NCBI GenBank assembly: GCA_020631455.1
Contig: JAHDHF010000009.1
Coordinates: 1 to 39,346 of the forward strand
Length of the DNA stretch: 39,346 nucleotides
From: Saprospiraceae bacterium
Lineage (GTDB): Bacteria > Bacteroidota > Bacteroidia > Chitinophagales > Saprospiraceae
Reading direction: 5' to 3'
This document shows, in pieces, positions 9,574-22,956 of the stretch (the first letter of the stretch is position 1; the number at the start of each line of letters is the position of its first letter). The notes under the pieces were generated by a model. It was not told the origin of the DNA. It made no database searches and worked only from the letters and a program-made list of their open reading frames with translations. A program made the position numbers and the translations under genes.

Positions 9574-9696
9574 GGGCCATCCGCTACTCGCTTCACTCCT
9601 AGCGGTCGCTATGCTCCGTGGCTCGCTGCTCGCTCGGCTGCTTGCTGCGCTGCGCATCTGCTTCACTTCGTTCGCACCACTTCGCAGCGCTTGTCC
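9574..9696 (+). repeat. Family A structured repeat, copy A2
   Basis: It begins GGGCCATCCGC and ends CACTTCGCAGCGCTTGTCC, with GGTCGCTATGCTCCGTGGCT inside. The first variable helix is CCGCTA/TAGCGG, a two-sided change relative to CCGCGC/GCGCGG in A1. It is followed after 22 bases by repeat B1, and the pair fills the divergent spacer 9527-9947. Confidence 0.85.
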
Positions 9697-9718
9697 ACCC
9701 AGAGTGTGACAGCTGCTT

Positions 9719-9837
9719 GGCTGAGGGATAGGAGGTGTTGTCTGAACTCAGTACCATTGAATCAAGATTCAATGGTACTGAGAGAGTGCCGGATAGCCCG
9801 ACCCGAAATGAGCACTGCGAATGAAGGGGCTGCCCCA
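9719..9837 (+). repeat. Family B structured repeat, copy B1
   Basis: It has the conserved head GGCTGAGGGATAGGAGGTG and block AGTGCCGGATAGCCCGACC. The first variable helix is a perfect 17-pair stem (9747-9763 with 9766-9782) with a two-base loop. Unlike the other copies, its 3' end reads GGGGCTGCCCC instead of GGGCAGCCCC, so the usual GGCTG/CAGCC closing helix is lost. Confidence 0.85.
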
Positions 9838-10932: not shown

Positions 10933-12750
10933 ATGAGAATACTTCAACTTTCTTTTGTGCTTTGCCTCTTGATGACGCTCAGCCTCAATATGCAAGCTCA
11001 ATGCCCTGGCTGTATTATTTCTGTACCTACATGGGTACCTGCAGATACTGCTTGGCTCGGCCCTATTCCAGATGGAACGAAAAATGTCTATTATGAAGAA
11101 GATTTGAGTTTTAGGCTTCCGAAGACTTCTGACGGAATTTTGGCTCTTTCTCCAGATATTCCTCCTGGGATCACATTCAATGATATTGAAATTGTAGGAA
11201 TTACGAACTTACCTCCAGGTATATCCTACGAGCTTGATAATCCGAGTGGCGTCTATGACCCGCAAGTACAATCAGATGGCTGTGCTCGTCTTTGTGGAAC
11301 ACCAATCGTAGCTGATTCTTTTTCATTGACGATTACTGCACGAGCGACTGTTTTCGGTATTTCGCAATCAGTAGGATTTAATGTACCATTTAAGGTCAAT
11401 CAACCTGTTAGTACTAATACTGGATTCTCCACTATCAATGGTGATGGCTGCGAAGACCTTGAAGTATCCTTTGTAAATAATATTCCAAGCAATGGAAATC
11501 CAGGTATCACTTATAACTGGGATTTCGGGAATACACTTAGCTCGACAAATGAAAACCCAGGATCTGTTGTTTATACAACTCCTGGTTCTTATGTAGTCAA
11601 CTATACTGCAACTATTGATACAGTTGGATATATTTTGACGAATGTTACTGTAGCTGCTTCTGATTGTAATGATGATGTTATTGTTCCCTTAGCACCAGAT
11701 TTTATTATCAAGATTTTTGATCCTTCTGGAAATGAAATCTACAATAGTGGTGCAAGTATCACTGATACTTATCCGCCAGTAGGTTTTGGTGTCAGTATAC
11801 CGATTGGTCCTGGCAGCTATTCAGTTGAAGTCATTGATGACGACGGGATCCTTCCAGATGATAACTGTGGCTCAGTTAATTTTACTCAGCTTACAAATGG
11901 AAATGTAAGCAGTGGTCCGTTGACTGTGAGTTTCACAATCGTTAATCCTGTCGATATTATTACTTCAACTGATACGATTGATGTTTATCCATCAGTATCT
12001 GCTCCCACTATTTCAGCTCCTACGACTACACTTTGCGCAGGAGATACAACAACATTTATGAGCAGCTATGCGACAGGCAACCAATGGTACTTTGACAGTA
12101 CTGCTATCCCTGGTGCAAATGGCCAAATGCTTCAAGTAGCTGATCCAGGTGAATATTATGTCATCTACACTTCACCAGATGGTTGCTCTGGCACATCTAT
12201 GATTGAGACGCTAACAGTCAATCCATTGCCGCCAGCACCAGGTTATGGATATTTCCAAAATGAAGCTGCCATCTTCGATGTCTCAACTTGGCCAGCATCA
12301 TATACGCTTGAGTGGTATCTCGATGGAGTACAAGTACCAGGATCGACAAATGAGCTTTTACTTTGTTTGACGACGAGTGGCACTCTCGAAGCAGTATTAA
12401 CTGACAATGTTACTTTATGTGTTAATTCGTACAGCTTCCCTGTGACGTATGATCCAGCAATTGATTGTACTGTTTCAGCTGACTTTGTTAATGAATTACA
12501 AGCATCGCTTGATGTGTTCCCTAATCCAGCACAAGATCAAGTTGAATTATCGTTTTTGCTTGAAGAATCAAGTGATGTCACTATTGAGATAGTTAACCTC
12601 CTAGGGCAAACTGTCAGTACGACGCAATTATTGAATGCAAATGGACAAATAAACCAAACGATAAACCTTGAAAATGCAAGTTCAGGGTTGTATATTGTGC
12701 ATGTTGTTGCTCAAGGCAAACATGCGAGCAGCAAACTTGTGATAGAGTAG
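10933..12750 (+). CDS. Multidomain secreted protein with PKD-like region and T9SS sorting domain
   Basis: The 605-residue exported protein has a signal peptide ending MQAQ at about residue 22. The first domain (about 23-160) resembles that of the preceding gene, with NLPPGISYELDNPSG and GCARLCGTP. About 165-225 look like a PKD-type beta sandwich (YNWDFGN, then TPGSYVVNYTATI). About 360-420 look like an Ig-like repeat (APTISAPTTTLCAGDTTTF, WYFDSTAIPG, DPGEYYVIYT). The last 80 residues are a T9SS type A sorting domain (LDVFPNPAQDQVELSF, IVNLLGQTV, SGLYIVHVVAQG). The start is ATG 10933, because the longer reading frame runs back into the terminator hairpin. A TATCTTTA box lies at 10900-10907. 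Probably cell-surface or extracellular. Confidence 0.82.
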   Translation: MRILQLSFVLCLLMTLSLNMQAQCPGCIISVPTWVPADTAWLGPIPDGTKNVYYEEDLSFRLPKTSDGILALSPDIPPGITFNDIEIVGITNLPPGISYELDNPSGVYDPQVQSDGCARLCGTPIVADSFSLTITARATVFGISQSVGFNVPFKVNQPVSTNTGFSTINGDGCEDLEVSFVNNIPSNGNPGITYNWDFGNTLSSTNENPGSVVYTTPGSYVVNYTATIDTVGYILTNVTVAASDCNDDVIVPLAPDFIIKIFDPSGNEIYNSGASITDTYPPVGFGVSIPIGPGSYSVEVIDDDGILPDDNCGSVNFTQLTNGNVSSGPLTVSFTIVNPVDIITSTDTIDVYPSVSAPTISAPTTTLCAGDTTTFMSSYATGNQWYFDSTAIPGANGQMLQVADPGEYYVIYTSPDGCSGTSMIETLTVNPLPPAPGYGYFQNEAAIFDVSTWPASYTLEWYLDGVQVPGSTNELLLCLTTSGTLEAVLTDNVTLCVNSYSFPVTYDPAIDCTVSADFVNELQASLDVFPNPAQDQVELSFLLEESSDVTIEIVNLLGQTVSTTQLLNANGQINQTINLENASSGLYIVHVVAQGKHASSKLVIE

Positions 12751-12771
12751 TTGTTTTGATTGTTTGATTAT

Positions 12772-12809
12772 AAAAGCCGCTTCCGTTTATTCGGAAGCGG
12801 CTTTTTTTT
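12772..12809 (+). terminator. Intrinsic terminator
   Basis: AAAAGCCGCTTCCG-TTTATT-CGGAAGCGGCTTTT continues into a T run. It lies 22 bases after the stop of the secreted-protein gene at 10933. Confidence 0.93.
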
Positions 12810-12812
12810 AGC

Positions 12813-12820
12813 TACATTTG
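12813..12820 (+). promoter_or_regulatory. -7 promoter box (TACATTTG)
   Basis: Perfect TACATTTG immediately after the preceding terminator and six bases before ATG 12827, giving an essentially leaderless prediction for the ExbD-like gene. A second in-frame ATG lies at 12836. Confidence 0.6.
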
Positions 12821-12826
12821 AATAAT

Positions 12827-13336
12827 ATGATACCCATGCGTGTATTTTTTTTGAGTCTCGTCATTTTTGCAGCAGCTATATCGAGCTGCGCTCCCGCTCG
12901 TATCGTCAAAAAGCAGCGCGATACGACAATGTCAGTCATCGATCCATTACCGACACTTGATGATCAGCTCAAAGCACTCAAACGTGTCAAAGAATCAAAT
13001 CAGCGTCTCGTTGTTTTGCACGAAAATGGTTATTTGTATTTTGATGGTATGCTTACAAAGCGATCAAAAATTGCTGAACAAATACATCAATTTATAATTA
13101 ACGAAGCGAGTAGCCCAAAACAGGCTGTCATTGCATACCGCTCACATATAAATGTCAAGTACGAAGAATACAATCGAGTGGAGACAGCACTCAAACGTGG
13201 ATTCTACAAAGCTCGAGATACGTATGCCAAACAGAAATACAAAAAAAGCTACTTTAAACTTGATTACAAGACTCGAAAAAAAATACGTAAAGTCATCCCA
13301 CGTAATTTAATAGAAGCAGAGCCGTATCAATTTTAA
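12827..13336 (+). CDS. Lipoprotein with ExbD-like periplasmic domain
   Basis: The 169-residue protein has a lipoprotein signal with lipobox AISSC (Cys21 from ATG 12827). The C-terminal half closely follows the pattern I know for the periplasmic end of Bacteroidota ExbD/TolR proteins. That pattern is a strand of the form VIAYRSHINVKYEEY, a helix with LKRGFYKARDTYAKQKY, and the ending IRKVIPRNLIEAEPYQF (compare the family's IR..YP..ISEAEP). Normal ExbD has an N-terminal transmembrane helix with a proton-carrying Asp. Here that segment is replaced by the lipoprotein signal, so it cannot form the proton channel. No exbB or tonB is nearby. Likely faces the periplasm, perhaps binding peptidoglycan or a TonB-system partner. 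The stop abuts the opposing gene's stop with no gap. Confidence 0.65.
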   Translation: MIPMRVFFLSLVIFAAAISSCAPARIVKKQRDTTMSVIDPLPTLDDQLKALKRVKESNQRLVVLHENGYLYFDGMLTKRSKIAEQIHQFIINEASSPKQAVIAYRSHINVKYEEYNRVETALKRGFYKARDTYAKQKYKKSYFKLDYKTRKKIRKVIPRNLIEAEPYQF

Positions 13337-14266
13337 TTATTGAGCTACTTGAATATCCGAAAACCAAATCGTAAATGAGCCCCGCTCACGCCGTTTTGTC
13401 GGCACATTCCAATTACCATTATAATGGATGTACGTCGGTAAATAATCATCGCCGTATTTATTGAGTACTATATTCATTGTAACGTCTACATCTATTGCGA
13501 GACCGTTTTGATAAAGACGATAATTGCGGCCCATAATTTGAAAATTCTCACGATCAAAAAAAGTATCCATATATCTGATCACAGTTTTTCCAGTCGCTTG
13601 ATATTCCTTTTTGGTCTTAACTGAAAATTTATAGACTGACTGATTATGAAATGTATCCGTAGTGATCGAATAATCATAATACTTCGCCATGCGTTTATCA
13701 AAGATTGGCGTTTTCTTTCCGATAAGCGGTATTGAGATGCGGTCGCCAGGCTGAAAAATGAGCGTTTTTAATGATTCTGTATATTCCTCCATTTTACCCT
13801 TGGGCTTTCTTGGTATTGCTGTTCGTTGTCGCTCACAATGTGAGCCAGATTGGGCAAAAAGCCGATAATACATTTGAGCAGTTGTAAATCGAAGCTTCGA
13901 TTTTTTCAGCCACTTGCCGCTTGTTTTTTCATTTAAAATTGTAGTATTTCTACAAAGAAAAGATTCCATCGTTTGCTCCACTTGATGATTCATAGATGCA
14001 ATTGATTTTCCTTTCCGATCATTGAAATTCATGTTTGCTGTTGATGAATAATTATAAAATCGAAGATTGCGAAAGGCTTGATAAAATGTGCTATCCGATC
14101 GCACCATGTCTATAAATTCTGCTACATCAAAGCCGCCACGCTCGGCTTCTACTACAAATGAGTCCAAGTACACAAATGCGGATATATCAAAATCTGTAGT
14201 GTCTTTTTGCGCTTGTAAGTGAACTATGATACAAGAAAAAAGTAATAGAAAAACAATTCTCATCAT
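13337..14266 (-). CDS. Exported protein of unknown function
   Basis: The 309-residue protein has an N-terminal signal peptide ending LQAQ at about residue 20. The rest is beta-rich, with repeated pairs of short strands (YYDYSITTDTFHNQSVYKF, RYMDTFFDRENFQIMG, YLPTYIHYNGNWNVP). This is in the style of periplasmic outer-membrane-associated proteins of Bacteroidota (LolA-like or carboxypeptidase-regulatory relatives), but I cannot name a family. A central stretch reads SGSHCERQRTAIPRK. Its DNA looks like a palindromic repeat inserted in frame (see findings). The start could be 14266 or the next ATG at 14263. The stop abuts that of the ExbD-like gene. Confidence 0.7.
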   Translation of the reverse strand: MMRIVFLLLFSCIIVHLQAQKDTTDFDISAFVYLDSFVVEAERGGFDVAEFIDMVRSDSTFYQAFRNLRFYNYSSTANMNFNDRKGKSIASMNHQVEQTMESFLCRNTTILNEKTSGKWLKKSKLRFTTAQMYYRLFAQSGSHCERQRTAIPRKPKGKMEEYTESLKTLIFQPGDRISIPLIGKKTPIFDKRMAKYYDYSITTDTFHNQSVYKFSVKTKKEYQATGKTVIRYMDTFFDRENFQIMGRNYRLYQNGLAIDVDVTMNIVLNKYGDDYLPTYIHYNGNWNVPTKRRERGSFTIWFSDIQVAQ

Positions 14267-14302: not shown

Positions 14303-14421
14303 TGGGCCATCCCCTTCGTTCGCTTTGCTCACTCTGGGTCGCTATGCTACGTGGCTCGCTATTCGCTCGGCCGCCTCACTGCATTCGGCGTCTGCTGCGC
14401 ACCACTTCGCAGCGCTTGTCC
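14303..14421 (+). repeat. Family A structured repeat, copy A3
   Basis: It has TGGGCCATCC at the start, the GGTCGCTATGCTACGTGGCT block, GCTATTCGCTCGGCCGCC, and the end CACTTCGCAGCGCTTGTCC. The first helix region is reduced to CCC/GGG pairing with a different loop. It is paired with copy B2 in the spacer 14267-14696, as A2 is with B1. Confidence 0.85.
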
Positions 14422-14511
14422 GACGCAATAATATGACACTGTCACCCCTTCGGGGTTCATCCGACTGGATTTAATCTGACTAGAATAATTTCTGCCCTTC
14501 AGGCTTAAACT

Positions 14512-14622
14512 GGCTGAGGGATGGTAGGTGTTGTCTGAACTCCGAGTGACTGAAAGGAACTCGGAGAGAGTGCCGAACAGCCCGACCGCGCATGAATGAA
14601 ATGAATGAGCGGGCAGCCCCAA
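14512..14622 (+). repeat. Family B structured repeat, copy B2
   Basis: The closing helix is GGCTG (14512-14516) with CAGCC (14614-14618). The first variable helix is CTCCGAGT/ACTCGGAG, and the second is CCGC/GCGG around ATGAATGAAATGAATGA. The first 65 or so bases are nearly identical to copy B3. Between A3 and B2 are only two small GC hairpins (around CACCCCTTCGGGGT and TGCCCTTCAGGC). Confidence 0.87.
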
Positions 14623-14696: not shown

Positions 14697-16226
14697 TTAT
14701 TTGTACTTGCGCTTGACTTTTTTGCGCTTTGTCTTAAAGTGATTCCCACCTGTCTTTGTGTTGCCTTGCGGTCCACCGACACGTGTCATTGCACAACGGA
14801 AACCGATCGTGCGTGATGCTTGATCTTCGTTGAAGAAGCGGCGAGCGCCTGGTGACAACCAGTATGCGCGATCTGCCCAGCTACCACCTTTGATGACGCG
14901 AGCTTTGTCACTGATAAGTGTTGTCTTACCGTAATTATAAACGACTTCTGATTCGAGATCACCATCAAGGTAATCGATGACGCTTCCGCGCTGATAGTTG
15001 GTACGTGTGGCGACATCTTCGTCTTTTACAACTTCGTAACGAAGGCGACCGAGGCTATCCTTTTCTACTGGAGCGCCATTTTCGTCTAGGATTTTTTGCT
15101 TGAAGACTGCACCACGGAATGAGTTGAGATCATGATCTTCAACACCACGGAGTGATGTACTTGTCAATGGACGATAGACATCCATAGTCCACTCTGATAC
15201 GTTTCCAGCCATATTGTAAAGACCATATTCGTTTGGCCAGAATGCACGTACAGGAGCAGTAATGTGAGCATTGTCATTGAGCTGACCCGCCATACCCATG
15301 TAGTCACCTCGACCACGCTTGAAGTTGGCCATCATCTTACCTTGCATTTTGCCACGCTTTTGATAGCGCATATTTGTTTGGTAGACAGTTTTGGCGTTAT
15401 TCCATGGATAGAGCTTACGGTCTGTGATATTCTCGTCTTTCTTGTAGCTTTGGTTGCCGAGAAGAGAAAGTGCAGCATATTCCCACTCAGCCTCTGTAGG
15501 CAGGCGGTACGAAGGAAGTAGAATACCATCTTCAAATTTTACTGGACGCTCACCGCCTGTACGAATGTCTTTCATGTTCTTGCGAACGTTGCCTTCGTAT
15601 TGGCCTACGAGATACGCTTCAGTATTGAAGTTGTCTTCATTTGTTTGTTCGTTGTTGTTGTTGAGGATTCCTTTGCTGATAAGGATCATCTCATTTACAC
15701 GGTCAGTTCTCCACTTGCAGTATTCATTTGCTTGAAGCCAATTGACACCAACAACTGGATAGTCATCATATGCAGGGTGACGGAAGTATGTCTCTACGAA
15801 TGGTTCGTTGAATGATAATTCCTCACGCCATACGAGCGTATCTGGTAATGCGTCACGGTATACACCTGGATAGGATTCGCCAAAAACGTTATCTAACCAA
15901 AAGAGATATTCGCGATAATCGATGTTAGCGACTTCTGTTTCATCCATGTAGAATGAAGAAACAGTGACACGACGTGGCATATTATCAAACTCGTAGATAA
16001 CATCTTGCTCGGTAGTACCCATAGAGAATGTACCACCTTCGATCAGAACGAGGTTTGGGCCATTGACTTGGCCTTTGTACTTCAATTTTTCGAAGCCGCC
16101 CCATTTTTCGTCATTATAGCTCCAGCCAGTAGTTGACGATTGGCTTTTCTTCCCTTTGCAAGACTGCATGCTGAACATACCGAAGAGTCCGATCAGCAGG
16201 AGGCATGAATAGATAAGTTGTTTCAT
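14697..16226 (-). CDS. gldJ: T9SS/gliding lipoprotein GldJ-like (SUMF1 family)
   Basis: The 509-residue outer-membrane lipoprotein has lipobox SMQSC (Cys23). It contains a formylglycine-generating-enzyme-like (SUMF1) fold: LVLIEGGTFSMGTTEQD near 52, ETEVANIDYREYLFWL, LPTEAEWEYAA near 250, NEYGLYNMAGNVSEWT near 345 and KGGSWADRAYW near 455. The end is a basic KKVKRKYK tail. GldJ and GldK are paralogues. The final segment ARRFFNEDQASRTIGFRCAM and the proximity to porU and porV (a gldJ-porU-porV order is known in Flavobacterium) favour GldJ. No gldL follows. The start at 16226 is chosen over a longer frame (from 16331) because only it opens a lipoprotein signal. A -7 box lies 60 bases upstream. 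Confidence 0.88.
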   Translation of the reverse strand: MKQLIYSCLLLIGLFGMFSMQSCKGKKSQSSTTGWSYNDEKWGGFEKLKYKGQVNGPNLVLIEGGTFSMGTTEQDVIYEFDNMPRRVTVSSFYMDETEVANIDYREYLFWLDNVFGESYPGVYRDALPDTLVWREELSFNEPFVETYFRHPAYDDYPVVGVNWLQANEYCKWRTDRVNEMILISKGILNNNNEQTNEDNFNTEAYLVGQYEGNVRKNMKDIRTGGERPVKFEDGILLPSYRLPTEAEWEYAALSLLGNQSYKKDENITDRKLYPWNNAKTVYQTNMRYQKRGKMQGKMMANFKRGRGDYMGMAGQLNDNAHITAPVRAFWPNEYGLYNMAGNVSEWTMDVYRPLTSTSLRGVEDHDLNSFRGAVFKQKILDENGAPVEKDSLGRLRYEVVKDEDVATRTNYQRGSVIDYLDGDLESEVVYNYGKTTLISDKARVIKGGSWADRAYWLSPGARRFFNEDQASRTIGFRCAMTRVGGPQGNTKTGGNHFKTKRKKVKRKYK

Positions 16227-16286
16227 GTTCCAGATTAAGTTGGGAGTGTTGAGTGATTGTTTGTGTTGTAATGTAATCGAGATGCC

Positions 16287-16294
16287 AAATATAG
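16287..16294 (-). promoter_or_regulatory. -7 promoter box of gldJ (TATATTTG)
   Basis: TATATTTG on the minus strand lies 60 bases before the gldJ ATG, in the 83-base gap after porP. It suggests gldJ can be transcribed separately from porP. Confidence 0.5.
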
Positions 16295-16309
16295 CGAAAT
16301 ACAAGTAGA

Positions 16310-17380
16310 CTAACGAAAAGATGACGGACAACTTAATTGTTTCCGCTGCCTATTTCTTCTTTGGAAACTTTCGCTGTCGGCAAAAGTCAAGACGAGAGAT
16401 AACTCGTGTGAGCCAGATGTATTGCCAGCTAGTCCAGAAACAGTATGATCATAGCTGTATCCGATCTTGAAAATTCCTTTTCGGAAACCGGCTAGTGCAA
16501 TGACTGCATCTGCATTGCCGAAGGTGTGGCGAAACCACATACCTCCAAAGAAAGCCCCGCCTTGTACATACGCTCCAACATTGGCTTGTTGGAATTCTGC
16601 TTGCTTTACAAACAGAAGGTTCGGTGATATGAACGTGGTGCTTTCATTCTTATTGTATCGATTGCCTAATTTTATTTCACTTCCTGCATGAATTGTCAAA
16701 CGCGTTGGTACATCAGCAAAGCCATTAATCTCGAGTAGACTCTCAGTTGGCGCATTGAGATGTTGCAATGCTGCTCCCAGATATACATATTCTGAGAAAA
16801 AGAGCAAACCTGTACCAAAGCTTGCATACGAAACTGAAGTTTGGTCAGGACGCTGCTCAAATGTTTGGTATGGTATGCCATTCGGATCTGTTGGGCCATT
16901 TACCGGATCGAGCTGGTCAAAGAATACAAGTTTATCCCAGTCTACTGAAGCATTGATATAGGAGGCACTTAAACCAAGTCTCAATCCCATTTCGTCAGAG
17001 AGATTAAGATTATAGGCATACGATCCATTAATTTGAATCGTCTTATAGATTCCATCTCCAGCAGCATCGCCTAGAATGTACAAACCGACTCCACTACTGA
17101 CTCGATCAATGTATTGATCATATCCTACAATGTATGTTTGGTAGGCATTGTTAAAACCAGGCCATTGGTTTCTGTAGTTTAGATGAATTCGTGCAGAAGC
17201 TGTCGCTCCTGTCAAAGCCGGATTAAGTCGTGTTGGAGCTGCAAAAAACTGGCTTAGCATTGGATCTTGAGCAAATACTTGACTTGCTAACTGTACAGCA
17301 AAAAGCAATAGGAAAGCTTTTTGCAACACAGCTCGGTCAAAATTGTCATATACATGACGTTTCAAGTCAATTTTCATCAT
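16310..17380 (-). CDS. porP: PorP/SprF-type outer-membrane protein of the T9SS
   Basis: The 356-residue protein has a long signal region ending SQVFAQ, then the family signature DPMLSQFFAAPTRLNPALTG just inside the mature end. About twelve amphipathic beta strands follow (YRNQWPGFNNAYQTY, GLGLYILGDAAGDG-like turns, FRKGIFKIGYSYD), giving a membrane beta barrel. PorP/SprF proteins anchor to peptidoglycan-linked T9SS partners or help secrete specific adhesins. It lies upstream of gldJ in the same direction and is divergent from porU across a 113-base spacer. ATG 17380 is preferred over an upstream TTG. A second ATG follows at 17377. Confidence 0.88.
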   Translation of the reverse strand: MMKIDLKRHVYDNFDRAVLQKAFLLLFAVQLASQVFAQDPMLSQFFAAPTRLNPALTGATASARIHLNYRNQWPGFNNAYQTYIVGYDQYIDRVSSGVGLYILGDAAGDGIYKTIQINGSYAYNLNLSDEMGLRLGLSASYINASVDWDKLVFFDQLDPVNGPTDPNGIPYQTFEQRPDQTSVSYASFGTGLLFFSEYVYLGAALQHLNAPTESLLEINGFADVPTRLTIHAGSEIKLGNRYNKNESTTFISPNLLFVKQAEFQQANVGAYVQGGAFFGGMWFRHTFGNADAVIALAGFRKGIFKIGYSYDHTVSGLAGNTSGSHELSLVLTFADSESFQRRNRQRKQLSCPSSFR

Positions 17381-17493
17381 ACAAACCAATACTCTGCAGT
17401 AAACAAACGTTCAACTTCGTGAAAAATTGCAAATTTTGCCTGTCGAAGTAATTCAATTTCAATTGCGAAATTAGCGTACTTAATTATTCTTTG

Positions 17494-20400
17494 ATGAATT
17501 CATATCACACACACAAGCTCATCTTCTCATTTCTTTTGCTTTTTGTAGCATTCCAAGTCGCTGCGCAAAACGTTATTCAGCTTGATCTGAAATGGAATGA
17601 TCAAGAACGATTACATCCGCAAGCTCTTTTCAACCTTGAAAATGGCGTTTACCAAGAAGAGTATAAAGGACTACCTGTCGTGATTCAAAAAATTGCTGGC
17701 ATTGATCTAAGAGGTAGAGCTATACATTTGAAGAATTCCCAATTTGAACAAGTTGCAATTTCTGATCAAAGTCTTCTTGACGTGATCGAGAATGAAATAC
17801 TCATTCAATCACAAACGAATCGATCCCGCAACAAAACGATTGCTCATCTTGAGATTCTGCCTTTTAGAAAAAATAATGGGCAAATTGAGCGGCTTGTAAA
17901 AGCAGAAATCCATATTGGTAGTCAACAATCCGTCGTCCAAAATAACAGTCGTGCTGCTTCGAGCTTTGCTACTCAGTCAGTACTAGCTACTGGAGATATT
18001 TATGCACTTTCAATTCAAGAGTCTGGCGTTTTCAAAATAGATTACAATACACTTCAAGAACTAGGCATCAATGTCAATTCAATAAACCCACAACACATTA
18101 AGCTCTATGGCAATACTGGTGGCATGCTTCCAGAACTTGCTGGCGAAGCACGTGTTGACGATCTTGCCGAACTTGCAATAGAAGTCGTTGGCGAAAGTGA
18201 TGGATCATTTGATCAAAATGATTATATCCGATTCTATTCAAATGGACCTAGCCAATTCAAGTATGATGACGTACTTAATAGATTCAGTTATTCAAACAAC
18301 ATCTACGATACAAAATCGTATGTCTTCTTAAAAATTGATGGGGCAAGTCCATCAAATCGAATCGGCACCACATCATCTATTTCTGGAGCTGTTTATTCTA
18401 CATCAACGTTTGATGGGTATGCTCACTATGAAGTCGATGAAACAAACCTCCTCGACATTTCTTTTGGCACCTCAGGTACAGGACGTCTTTGGCTTGGAGA
18501 ATCATTTCGATATACCCAAAACCAAACATTTAACCTCGAGATGCCGAATCTCGTGACATCTGAGCCTGTTATCATAGAGACAAGTCTCGCTGCTCGATCG
18601 ATCGGTGCAGCTAGCCAATTTCAAGTACGAATTGACGGACAAACCTACCCTACTCAAAACTTAGTCTCAGTTAATGGTGGCTCAGTTGGACAAGGCGGAT
18701 CACGTACTGTTCCAGTGTTTACGCATACTGCATCTTCATCTACAATTTCGGTAAATCTGAATTACATCAAAGTTATTAGCGATGCTGCTGGATATTTAGA
18801 TTATATAACGATCAATGGTCGTCAAAATTTAATTAAAAACTCGAGTCAACTAGCATTTAGAGATACACGAACACTTTCTTATGCGCAATCAAATTTTTCA
18901 ATTGCAAATACTTCATCAAATACGCGTTTCTGGGATATTACAGATCCATTAAATCCAAGTGTACAACAAGGCTCTTCATCAGGATCAGAATTCACTTTTG
19001 GAGCTAATACTACATCCCTTAAAGAATTCATAGCCTTTAATCCCGGAGAAGAAAAAGAAATTCAAATTGTAGGAACAATTCCAAATCAAAACCTTCACGG
19101 CATACTTACGCCTAAACCTCTCTTAATTATTACAAACACTGCTTTAAAGCCAGAAGCGCAACGACTCGCTCAACATAGATTAGCCTATAGTAATATCGAC
19201 GCAACGATTGTTGATGTTCAAGAGATATATAACGAATTTTCCGCTGGATCAAAAGACATTTCTGCAATTCGTGATTTTATTAAAATGCTCTATGATAGAA
19301 GTGGTCCTTCAGGTGATTTTAAATACGTCTTACTCTTTGGTGATGCTTCATTTGATTATCGTAATATTAATGAAAATGAAGAGAATTATGATATTATACC
19401 AACATATCAGACTCGCGAATCTCTAAGTGCTGTAAGCGGATATCCAACCGATGATTATTTTGGCTTACTTGATGATACAGAAGGAGCGAATATAGAATCT
19501 GGAGGATTAGATATTGCCATAGGTCGTATTCCGGCTCGGACAATCCAAGAAGCAAAAAATGTTGTTGACAAAATCATTCATTACGAAACAAATCCGAATA
19601 CCTTTTCCGACTGGAAAAACAGAATAACATATATTGCTGATGACCAAGATGGGAATACGCATTTTAACGACTCCGACGGAATTGCTGAGGCTGTTCGTGA
19701 TTCAAATAACTTCTTTAATATCACTAAAATTTATGCTGATGCTTATCAGCAGCTTTCTACTCCAGGAGGCAATAGATATCCAGACGTGACTGCTGCAATT
19801 GTCAATGAAGTGACACGCGGAAACTTAATTATAAATTATATGGGGCATGGAGGTCACGATGGATGGGCTCAAGAGCGAATTCTCACAATGAATGAAATAA
19901 ATTCATTTGACAATTATGATAAATTACCATTATTTGTAACTGCTACTTGCACATTCGCACCTTATGAAGACCCGACTTATGTCAGCGCTGGTGAGACACT
20001 TGTCATGAACCCCAACGGCGGCGCCATCGCATTATTTACAACTACACGAGCAGTATATGCTTATGCAAACAGACTCCTTGGTACATCAGCATTTGATGCA
20101 TTAGCATTTCCACCAGGCACAGTCCGCCCGCCGATCGGCGAAATTCTCCGTACATCAAAAAACAATACAACTGCTTCTATTCAGAATTCAAGAAAATTTG
20201 TTCTTCTCGGAGATCCATCTATGGCGCTCGCCTATCCGACTCAACGCGTTTCGACAATCAGCATAAATGGAGTCGCTCCAAATGCTGATACACTAAACGC
20301 TCTCGAACCCGTTACTATTAAAGGCGAAATTACAGATCCGTCTGGCTCTAGATTGACAGATTTTAATGGTACAATTTATCCGACAGTTTTTGACAAAGTC

Positions 20401-21333
20401 GCTACCTACAGTACGCGCGGAAATGATAATGGTAGTACCCCTGCAAATTTTCAATCACAAGATGTGATTTTATTTAGAGGTCGCGCGCAAGTCGTCAATG
20501 GCGAATGGGAATTTTCATTTACAGTTCCACTCGATATTAATTATACAATCGGTAATGGCCGCATTAGTTATTATGCAGAAGACGGAAACAATAGAGAAGC
20601 CATAGGATTTGATAATACAATTATTATTGGCGGTGCTAATTCAACTGGAGTTACAGATGATACACCTCCACTTGTAGAAGTATTTATGAATGATTCGACA
20701 TTTGTATTTGGTGGCACAACAGATGCTGATCCAAAATTATATGTTCGAATTTCAGATGATCTTGGCATCAATACAACAGGCACTGGAATTGGACACGATA
20801 TCACTGCAACACTTGATGATAATTCTTCCGAAGTTTTTATTCTGAATGACTTTTATGAATCAGAATTAAATAATTCAAAAAAAGGATCAGTCTTATATGG
20901 TTTATTTGACCTCCCTGAAGGAAAACATACTATTAAAGTACGCGCTTGGGACGTCGCCAATAATCCAGGTGAAGGCGAAACAGAATTCATCGTTGCAGAA
21001 AGCGGTCAAGTTGCCCTTGAGCATGTTTTAAATTATCCAAATCCATTTACAACAAATACCGAATTTCAATTCGAACACAACTTTCCTAATCAACCCTTGA
21101 CAGTTCAAGTTCAGATATTTACTGTCGCTGGAAAACTCGTTAAAACAATAGAACAACAAGTTATTTCAGATGGCTACAGAGTCACAGGATTACAATGGAA
21201 TGGCACTGATGATTACGGCGATAATTTAGCCCGAGGCGTTTACATTTATCGAGTCAATGTTGCGACGCAAAATGAATTTGGAGGCATTATTACCAAGCGA
21301 AGTGATTTCGAAAAACTCGTTCTTTTAAAATAA
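17494..21333 (+). CDS. porU: T9SS C-terminal signal peptidase PorU
   Basis: The 1279-residue secreted gingipain-type (C25) protease removes the sorting domain from T9SS cargo at the cell surface and attaches cargo to the anchor. A signal peptide ends VAAQ at about residue 25. The C25 domain spans about 520-930, with catalytic His785 in MGHGGHDGW and Cys819 in TATCTFAPYEDP. The latter matches PorU and not free gingipains. Beta domains follow, and a C-terminal FlgD/T9SS-like domain (LNYPNPFTTNTEF, GTDDYGDNLARGVYIYRV) ends KLVLLK. The start is ATG 17494 rather than the TTG three bases upstream. It is followed by repeat C1 and porV. Confidence 0.96.
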   Translation: MNSYHTHKLIFSFLLLFVAFQVAAQNVIQLDLKWNDQERLHPQALFNLENGVYQEEYKGLPVVIQKIAGIDLRGRAIHLKNSQFEQVAISDQSLLDVIENEILIQSQTNRSRNKTIAHLEILPFRKNNGQIERLVKAEIHIGSQQSVVQNNSRAASSFATQSVLATGDIYALSIQESGVFKIDYNTLQELGINVNSINPQHIKLYGNTGGMLPELAGEARVDDLAELAIEVVGESDGSFDQNDYIRFYSNGPSQFKYDDVLNRFSYSNNIYDTKSYVFLKIDGASPSNRIGTTSSISGAVYSTSTFDGYAHYEVDETNLLDISFGTSGTGRLWLGESFRYTQNQTFNLEMPNLVTSEPVIIETSLAARSIGAASQFQVRIDGQTYPTQNLVSVNGGSVGQGGSRTVPVFTHTASSSTISVNLNYIKVISDAAGYLDYITINGRQNLIKNSSQLAFRDTRTLSYAQSNFSIANTSSNTRFWDITDPLNPSVQQGSSSGSEFTFGANTTSLKEFIAFNPGEEKEIQIVGTIPNQNLHGILTPKPLLIITNTALKPEAQRLAQHRLAYSNIDATIVDVQEIYNEFSAGSKDISAIRDFIKMLYDRSGPSGDFKYVLLFGDASFDYRNINENEENYDIIPTYQTRESLSAVSGYPTDDYFGLLDDTEGANIESGGLDIAIGRIPARTIQEAKNVVDKIIHYETNPNTFSDWKNRITYIADDQDGNTHFNDSDGIAEAVRDSNNFFNITKIYADAYQQLSTPGGNRYPDVTAAIVNEVTRGNLIINYMGHGGHDGWAQERILTMNEINSFDNYDKLPLFVTATCTFAPYEDPTYVSAGETLVMNPNGGAIALFTTTRAVYAYANRLLGTSAFDALAFPPGTVRPPIGEILRTSKNNTTASIQNSRKFVLLGDPSMALAYPTQRVSTISINGVAPNADTLNALEPVTIKGEITDPSGSRLTDFNGTIYPTVFDKVATYSTRGNDNGSTPANFQSQDVILFRGRAQVVNGEWEFSFTVPLDINYTIGNGRISYYAEDGNNREAIGFDNTIIIGGANSTGVTDDTPPLVEVFMNDSTFVFGGTTDADPKLYVRISDDLGINTTGTGIGHDITATLDDNSSEVFILNDFYESELNNSKKGSVLYGLFDLPEGKHTIKVRAWDVANNPGEGETEFIVAESGQVALEHVLNYPNPFTTNTEFQFEHNFPNQPLTVQVQIFTVAGKLVKTIEQQVISDGYRVTGLQWNGTDDYGDNLARGVYIYRVNVATQNEFGGIITKRSDFEKLVLLK

Positions 21334-21371
21334 AAAAATGAGTGTATTTCCAAATAGAAAATCATCCATAA

Positions 21372-21533
21372 TGAGAGCACCCCACTCGCTTGAGCGAGTG
21401 GCCGCGCTGTCTCGTCGCTCGCAGCAGATACCGCAGACAGCCAGCGTGTTCCACGCCGTCTCATGCGATGCTGCTCGGCCGTCGCTACGCTCCGTCTGCT
21501 GCTACGCAGCACGACTGACCATCGCTGGTGCAT
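21372..21533 (+). repeat. Family C structured repeat, copy C1
   Basis: The outer helix is GCACC (21377-21381) with GGTGC (21527-21531), followed by a perfect hairpin CCACTCGCT-TG-AGCGAGTGG. An inner helix GCTGTCT/AGACAGC is shared with C2, as are GATACCGCAGACAGCCA, GTCTCATGCG and CTGACCATCGCT. It lies between porU and porV. The remaining bases to 21705 (AT-rich, with AATATTTG and CATATTTG) may hold the porV promoter. Confidence 0.82.
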
Positions 21534-21705
21534 AAAAACAGATCGAATATTTGTAGAGCTTCCACGAATTACACCATATTTGCAATCCAATGTTAGAAGA
21601 GTCTTAATGCGGCTCAATTCTTGATAAATCAGTCACCAAAACTCCAAAACTATACGTCAAGTTTTACGTTTCACTACATCTGATTATTCATTAATCCTAT
21701 TTCTT

Positions 21706-22956
21706 ATGAGACGAATTTGTCTCTCACTCCTCATTGGAGCGATTAGTTTATTTGCAGTTACACAAACGCAAGCACAGCTCGCTGCAGGCTGCGTTGACGG
21801 CAAAAACCCAGTTACTGGAGAAGATTGTGTCAATACGATCACAACTGCACTTCCCTTCTTACGCATTGTGCCAGATGCTCGCTCAGGAGCTATGGGCGAT
21901 GTTGGCATCGCGATCTCACCAGATGCCAATGCAATGCACTTTAATGCATCAAAGCTTGCATTCTCTAAAAAAGACATCGGTATATCAGCTACGTACACGC
22001 CTTGGCTGCGTGCACTCGGTATCAATGACGTTTATCTCGCATACCTCGGCGCATACAAGCATATTGGACCGATCAGCGCCCAACAGACAGTAAGCGTCAG
22101 CATGCGCTTCTTTTCTCTTGGTAGCATCAGCATCACTGACATCAACAATACACCACTTGGTACAGATCGTCCTCGTGAGTTTGAGATTGCAGCTGCTTAC
22201 TCAAGAGCACTCGTTCCAGATCGCTTCTCTGCTGGTTTGACACTTAAGTACGCTTACTCACGCCTAGCAGCAGGTCAGTTTATTAATGGACAAGAAATCC
22301 GTCCAGCATCAGCTATTGCAGCCGACCTTTCGTTCACTGGTATTTTTCCGATCGAAAGCATGGAGAAAGGCTCCAACGTCACACTCGGTGGTGCGATCTC
22401 TAACATCGGCAGCAAAGTCAGCTACCTCGAGTCAGCTAACAAAGACTACATTCCGACAAACCTTGGAATCGGAACTGCTTTTACTGGTCAGATAGACGAG
22501 TACAATAAATTTACAATTGCACTTGACATCAACAAGCTGCTTGTCCCGACTCCACCTGAAGGCGATCCTCTTGGCACTGTTAACGACGCTGACCAAAATG
22601 GTGTTCCAGATTACAAAGAGCTTTCAAGTATTTCTGCTATTTTCTCATCATTTGGAGATGCGCCTGCTGGCTTCTCTGAAGAACTCCGTGAATTCATGTG
22701 GTCGGTTGGAGCTGAATACTGGTACAACGATCAGTTTGCTGTACGTACTGGTTACTTCTATGAGCATGGCACAAAAGGAAATCGCAAGTTCTTAACTGCA
22801 GGATTAGGTATCCGCTATAGCGTGTTCAACCTCAACTTTAGCTACTTAATCCCGACAAGTAATCAGCGTAATCCACTTGATAATACGTTACGCTTCTCGC
22901 TTCTATTTGACTTTGATAAAAACACTGGCGATCCAACGCCAGCTGATGATTTATAA
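21706..22956 (+). CDS. porV: T9SS outer-membrane protein PorV (LptO)
   Basis: The 416-residue FadL-like beta barrel shuttles secreted cargo from the SprA translocon to PorU for sorting-domain removal. A signal peptide ends TQAQ at about residue 23. The PorV hallmark ALPFLRIVPDARSGAMGD follows at about 49-66, then SPDANAMHFNASKLAF and YTPWLRALGINDVYLAYL. The barrel ends with LNFSYLIPTSNQRNPLDNT and an acidic tail. The length fits. It is the partner of the adjacent porU and has its own terminator, while a repeat-filled 372-base spacer separates it from porU. Confidence 0.95.
   Translation: MRRICLSLLIGAISLFAVTQTQAQLAAGCVDGKNPVTGEDCVNTITTALPFLRIVPDARSGAMGDVGIAISPDANAMHFNASKLAFSKKDIGISATYTPWLRALGINDVYLAYLGAYKHIGPISAQQTVSVSMRFFSLGSISITDINNTPLGTDRPREFEIAAAYSRALVPDRFSAGLTLKYAYSRLAAGQFINGQEIRPASAIAADLSFTGIFPIESMEKGSNVTLGGAISNIGSKVSYLESANKDYIPTNLGIGTAFTGQIDEYNKFTIALDINKLLVPTPPEGDPLGTVNDADQNGVPDYKELSSISAIFSSFGDAPAGFSEELREFMWSVGAEYWYNDQFAVRTGYFYEHGTKGNRKFLTAGLGIRYSVFNLNFSYLIPTSNQRNPLDNTLRFSLLFDFDKNTGDPTPADDL

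Follow-up and report, generated by a model that had tools for sequence, protein, structure and literature searches.

As a motor subunit, ExbD is known to pass force to TonB through its periplasmic domain. A gene on a contig of a Saprospiraceae bacterium (GCA_020631455.1, contig JAHDHF010000009.1, forward strand) raises the question of what such a domain does once it is separated from the motor. The contig was analyzed from position 1 to 39,346, and this whole stretch of 39,346 nucleotides is referred to as the window. The original prediction was that the gene carries an ExbD periplasmic domain on a lipoprotein in which the motor helix is replaced, and this is borne out by the sequence, by a confident AlphaFold model, and by fold searches. 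The gene (12836 to 13336, + strand) is an intact open reading frame for a product of 166 amino acids (aa). In-frame start codons are present at 12818 (TTG), 12827 (ATG), and 12836 (ATG), of which we adopted the one at 12836; the original prediction used 12827, and the argument is unaffected by this choice. The following features are referred to below.

12772 to 12805, + strand: intrinsic-terminator hairpin found by terminator scan (14 pairs, including 8 GC pairs, and a T tail).
12836 to 12886, + strand: lipoprotein signal sequence MRVFFLSLVIFAAAISS, read from the sequence, with the lipobox I-S-S-C assigned by rule; starting at ATG 12827 would add MIP.
12887 to 12997, + strand: predicted acylation site Cys18 and basic linker CAPARIVKKQRDTTMSVIDPLPTLDDQLKALKRVKES, residues 18 to 54, based on alignments; pLDDT is low in most of it.
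12998 to 13333, + strand: ExbD/TolR periplasmic fold, residues 55 to 166, with the C-terminal helical extension of Bacteroidota type-1 ExbDs (AlphaFold2, Foldseek, VIA, and phmmer).
13142 to 13156, + strand: loop SHINV, residues 103 to 107, replacing the near-invariant NDRGT of ExbD (N, D, R, G, and T are 86 to 96% conserved in 56 relatives; five of five are changed).
13298 to 13324, + strand: P155-RNLIEAE-P163, the C-terminal strand (β6 equivalent) with the EAEP motif; P155, E160, A161, E162, and P163, which are 93 to 100% conserved, are retained.

Searching 198 related genomes with the 166-aa protein returned almost exclusively ExbDs. The best ExbD relative, from a member of the Saprospirales, was matched by phmmer with an E value of 1.1e-11 (46 bits), and an ExbD of the same genome (contig C55) with an E value of 9.2e-9 and 32% identity over 137 aa. 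The alignment to ExbDs is co-linear over about 135 aa, includes the Bacteroidota-specific C-terminal helices, and extends to the ending P....(S/I)EAEP. The Pfam ExbD model (PF02472) matched with an E value of 0.085 and 13.4 bits, which is under its gathering cut-off of 25.4, and the Pfam model alone is therefore too weak to reveal the relationship. A match to the NCBIfam recD model (E value of 0.0055, far under its cut-off) was taken as chance. On sequence evidence, and without the structural model, we consider the homology to ExbD secure.

The AlphaFold2 model was computed from an input alignment of 56 ExbD periplasmic domains, and for this reason the homology to ExbD is already built into its fold. 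In the domain, which comprises 112 residues, pLDDT was mostly above 95, and 109 of 149 residues had values of at least 90; a single-sequence AlphaFold control without an alignment had a pLDDT of 44 and was uninformative on the fold. Foldseek searches against the PDB gave five matches under an E value of 0.001, all to ExbD periplasmic domains (8p9r, 8vgd, 8vgc, and 8pek). In structural alignments using VIA, TolR and ExbD structures lead with Z scores of 8.5 to 8.0 (TolR 5by4, 8.5; ExbD 8p9r, 8.2), followed by TolR 2jwk (6.5) and by unrelated structures at 5.9 and below. The comparison with ExbD and TolR periplasmic domains that had been suggested originally thus has solely ExbD and TolR as its leading PDB matches. 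We conclude that an intact gene encodes a lipoprotein-type protein and that its mature part is a Bacteroidota-type ExbD periplasmic domain.

At the position where relatives have SMADIAFLLLIFFLVTTT, the 166-aa protein has no ExbD motor helix. Instead, its N-terminus reads MR-VFFLSLVIFAAA-ISSC, i.e., an n-region, a hydrophobic stretch, and a lipobox according to the rule [LVI]-[ASTVI]-[GAS]-C near the N-terminus, and the mature protein would start with CAPARIVKKQ... after the signal. In Bacteroidota, lipoproteins with an acidic signal after the cysteine are exported, while those without it face the periplasm. Because the residues following Cys18 (APARI) contain no acidic export signal, the protein should by this rule be lipid-anchored and periplasm-facing; lipidation and an outer-membrane location are rule-based predictions. 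The 37-residue linker is basic and has a degenerate trace of the NIBS motif DKGxxVKLPP (D29 ... L38-P39), in which D29, L38, and P39 are retained and G31 and P40 are lost in the alignments.

A helix with the proton-carrying Asp is absent from all three frames upstream of the start (12701 to 12865). A frameshifted or truncated ExbD was ruled out because the upstream gap contains the terminator hairpin and none of the frames encodes a motor helix. Lacking the proton-carrying helix, the protein cannot be a motor subunit or conduct protons. We therefore class it as a lipoprotein with a periplasmic domain derived from ExbD and not as an ExbD motor subunit, since the Asp helix and an exbB neighborhood are both missing and the Pfam match is below the cut-off.

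The gene stands apart from its neighbors. The hairpin at 12772 to 12805 lies a short gap past the stop codon of the upstream gene, which encodes a type IX secretion system (T9SS) cargo protein, and parts the two genes; ATG 12836 is ~30 bp downstream of this strong terminator hairpin. Just 5' of the start codons, at 12813 to 12820, the sequence reads TACATTTG, which we take to fit the Bacteroidota −7 promoter box TAnnTTTG. If TACATTTG is the predicted −7 box, the transcript could be nearly leaderless. The 3' neighbor (13337 to 14266) is convergent and has no assigned function; in 17 other genomes, its homologues adjoin no ExbD-like gene, and one adjoins an unrelated lipoprotein gene. GC3 of the ExbD-like gene is 0.34, which is ordinary for the window, and searches for a phage or plasmid origin gave no match. 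The original prediction also held that neither exbB nor tonB is near, and we saw none of exbB, exbD, and tonB anywhere in the 39 kb of the window. As separate observations, two pairs of dispersed direct repeats in intergenic regions flank the gene (9604 to 9641 and 14337 to 14374, 89% identical; 9718 to 9749 and 14511 to 14542, 94% identical) with a spacing of about 4.7 to 4.8 kb, and reading frames resembling these repeats are found on other contigs of the same genome (L192 and L194). The region from 14697 to 22956 is a T9SS cluster with genes for a GldJ-like FGE-domain lipoprotein, PorP/SprF, a C25-peptidase-family protein (PorU-like), and PorV.

The ExbDs and exb loci of this genome are on contigs C55 (C55:14843-15265) and C258. 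In its TonB (L001:1906-2793), the membrane helix is followed by an acidic stretch and by EGILVALG, which by eye looks like a strand and is flanked by prolines. TonB_C domains are also present on three proteins of this genome without a visible membrane helix, i.e., L192, which has a Sec-type signal, L193, which has no evident signal, and L194 (G000:C270, about 222-661, − strand), which has a lipoprotein signal and a frameshift between the signal and the TonB_C part.

The pattern of retained and lost residues bears on what the domain may still do. Among the 46 columns conserved at ≥80% in the 56 relatives, 18 are retained, including D29, L38-P39, N55, F86, I87, N89, Y109, Y112, V115, P155, and E160-A161-E162-P163. 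Identity to the consensus is best in the C-terminal strand (0.50) and C-terminal helix (0.47), compared to 0.21 in the linker. In E. coli, the TonB D-box sits between two ExbD protomers, where it is captured by the last ExbD strand (PMC10907165; PMC10771500); this D-box site on ExbD is covered by the NIBS in the closed state (PMC10771500; PMC12905483). In our model, strand 141-143 (residues 158 to 160 of the protein) is located in the terminal part of the structural alignment, which reaches residues 134-135 of E. coli ExbD. A competitor, an adaptor, and a peptidoglycan binder had originally been proposed as possible roles; the retained P155/EAEP segment somewhat favors a protein-binding role. 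Along the long helix, most of the conserved face is lost, with the ExbD helix residues N117, E118, A121, A122, and L126 changed; because of these changes and the loss of NDRGT, an ExbD-like dimer or groove may fail to form. The mature protein has a net charge of +16 and a pI of 9.9, compared to a mean charge of −3.8 (SD 3.5, maximum +6) for the 56 ExbD domains. The lost NDRGT loop together with the strongly basic charge makes a simple ExbD mimic less likely.

Neither a scan of genome contigs with the 166-aa protein nor inspection of the top-scoring hits from 165 genera of the order identified an orthologue, and the best matches in the family and phylum samples were ExbDs or other ExbD-domain proteins. 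The N-termini of best matches only were examined, so that a weaker orthologue could escape; the genus of the source organism, represented by one genome, likewise gave none. Homologues with a normal transmembrane helix, which had been named originally as evidence against the lipoprotein form, were found solely as ExbD paralogues.

Two-domain ExbD-like lipoproteins are encoded in other Saprospirales, i.e., L021 (identical to L190, from a Chitinophagales MAG; G103:C175:39132-40121) and L079 (G419:C266), and a third exported two-domain protein, L077/L078 (G029:C67:165153-166247), has a doubtful lipobox. Thus, a lipobox is present in two of three tandem proteins and a motor helix in none. Profile comparison relates their first domains to ExbD (probability of 93%); the second domain of L190 shares 67% identity with a canonical ExbD and retains an NERGT loop. 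No exbB is visible beside the G103 tandem gene (L229).

Other ExbD domains of the phylum are uncoupled from the motor in different ways. One genus has secreted single ExbD domains (L108 and L111), and Asp-less membrane or signal stubs are encoded at L025:1417-1926 and L166:2095-2622. The Asp-less copy of L166 sits within an exbB-...-exbD-exbD2-(Asp-less)-exbD array, which makes mixed dimers or regulation possible. In one family of the phylum, M56 (BlaR1-type) peptidases have two C-terminal ExbD-like domains (L113, L118, L119, L124, and L129); both parts of these fusions are already recognized by Pfam, and their ExbD domains resemble a part taken over from the Ton motor for sensing or anchoring. 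In addition, a 488-aa multi-pass membrane protein (L228; G230:C11:11000-14200, 1450-2913, − strand) has an ExbD-like C-terminal end (REAYAQQEYKQTFKELDYDKQIKIRQAYP). A non-exhaustive search of the open-licence PMC literature gave no description of a lipoprotein form of ExbD, including the tandem type. The parts of the protein were already known, as were the Pfam-recognized M56 fusions.

The tree forces at least two origins of Asp-less forms and places the L190 domain beside canonical ExbD. The window protein has an extremely long branch (3.1 to 9.3 changes per column); it grouped with the secreted L108/L111 and, once those rows were omitted, stood beside L190/L142. Both placements are unreliable because the row of the window protein is too long to place. 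A test of the motor-less forms as one clade gave a p-AU of 0.06, which is not decisive given the long branches. We conclude that uncoupled ExbD domains recur in Bacteroidota and that the window protein fits this pattern.

Our preferred reading, to which we assign a probability of roughly 45%, is that the window protein derives from ExbD and serves as a lipid-anchored binding or adaptor domain that acts by strand capture, with the basic surface aiding affinity. A copy of the periplasmic domain of a type-1 ExbD would have been joined to a lipoprotein signal, comparable to Pal, and would then have diverged strongly and turned basic. With a lipid anchor and a flexible basic linker, the ExbD fold would face the periplasm as a passive binding or adaptor domain. 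Its C-terminal strand might capture a β-strand of a partner, as ExbD does with the TonB D-box, and the basic surface could add affinity for an acidic partner, e.g., the TonB linker or an envelope polymer. Lipidation, location, strand capture, and partner are all what we infer for this protein.

An unlikely alternative is a decoy or brake of the Ton system, in which the lipoprotein binds the TonB D-box or pairs with ExbD, competes with the motor, and tunes uptake. Indeed, the protein retains the EAEP motif and the equivalent of the strand that binds the D-box, the L166 array documents that inactive ExbD copies can be co-encoded with the motor, and in E. coli a single D-box is gripped by a pair of ExbD protomers (PMC10907165). 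However, exbB, exbD, and tonB all lie far away from the gene, core helix residues are changed, and if the protein is in the outer membrane, a D-box close to the inner membrane would be hard to reach.

We give a similarly small chance, slightly lower, to a Pal-like tether, in which peptidoglycan binding by the lipoprotein would fasten the outer membrane to the cell wall. The ExbD periplasmic domain transiently binds peptidoglycan glycan chains in Serratia and E. coli (PMC10771500), Pal itself arose when an OmpA domain was joined to a lipoprotein signal (PMC12204202), and a basic surface would suit wall contact; yet Pfam searches at E values of up to 10 gave no OmpA or Pal match and, weakly, ExbD, and the NDRGT loop, 86 to 96% conserved in relatives, is lost.

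Equally doubtful is an orphan paralogue without an important function, i.e., a duplicated ExbD C-terminus that acquired an export signal and is drifting. This would agree with the extremely long, unplaceable branch, the lack of an orthologue among the best matches in 165 genera, and the position of the gene alone behind a terminator. Against drift, the open reading frame, signal, and lipobox are intact, the charge shifted coherently with no loss of the structural core, P155, or EAEP, and the GC3 of 0.34 is ordinary for the window. Finally, an unrelated lipoprotein with a chance resemblance to ExbD, as the Pfam score under the cut-off might suggest, is very improbable given E values of about 1e-11 to many ExbDs, co-linearity over about 135 aa that includes the Bacteroidota-specific extension, and a confident model (on an alignment of ExbDs) with ExbD and TolR alone in front.

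Returning to the binding or adaptor domain, a natural motor-less ExbD domain uncouples binding from the generation of force; it would reveal whether strand capture is useful in its own right and would be a ready-made reagent for tests of the interactions among ExbD, TonB, and peptidoglycan. The recurrence of uncoupled forms suggests a wider use of the ExbD domain than is assumed in the literature on the motor. A broader idea, which we rate as rather improbable, is that the periplasmic domain of Bacteroidota ExbD is a mobile interaction module that was repeatedly freed from the proton motor (in lipoproteins, secreted proteins, Asp-less stubs, and BlaR1-type proteases) and that would read or tether TonB-like strands and thereby couple Ton state or mechanical contact to other envelope functions.

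Compared to known systems, the window protein shares with Bacteroidota type-1 ExbD (ending ...IPLVISEAEP; C55:14843-15265 in the same genome) the periplasmic fold, the C-terminal helical extension, the P155/EAEP segment, the L-P trace of the NIBS, and 32% identity; it differs in having a lipoprotein signal and no Asp motor helix, in the lost NDRGT, in a charge of +16 versus about −4, and in not being located beside exbB. With TolR (5by4 and 2jwk), it shares the periplasmic fold (VIA Z score of 8.5, RMSD of 3.2 over 86 residues), but there is no motor helix, no tolQ or pal neighborhood, and identity is 8%. The likeness to Pal, an OmpA-type outer-membrane lipoprotein, is one of analogy, i.e., a soluble envelope domain with a lipoprotein signal; the domain families are different, and peptidoglycan binding, a feature of Pal, is putative here. 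The tandem lipoproteins likewise have exported ExbD periplasmic domains without a motor helix but contain two of them, and the M56 (BlaR1-type)-ExbD peptidases also have the ExbD domain away from ExbB, whereas these fusions are membrane proteases.
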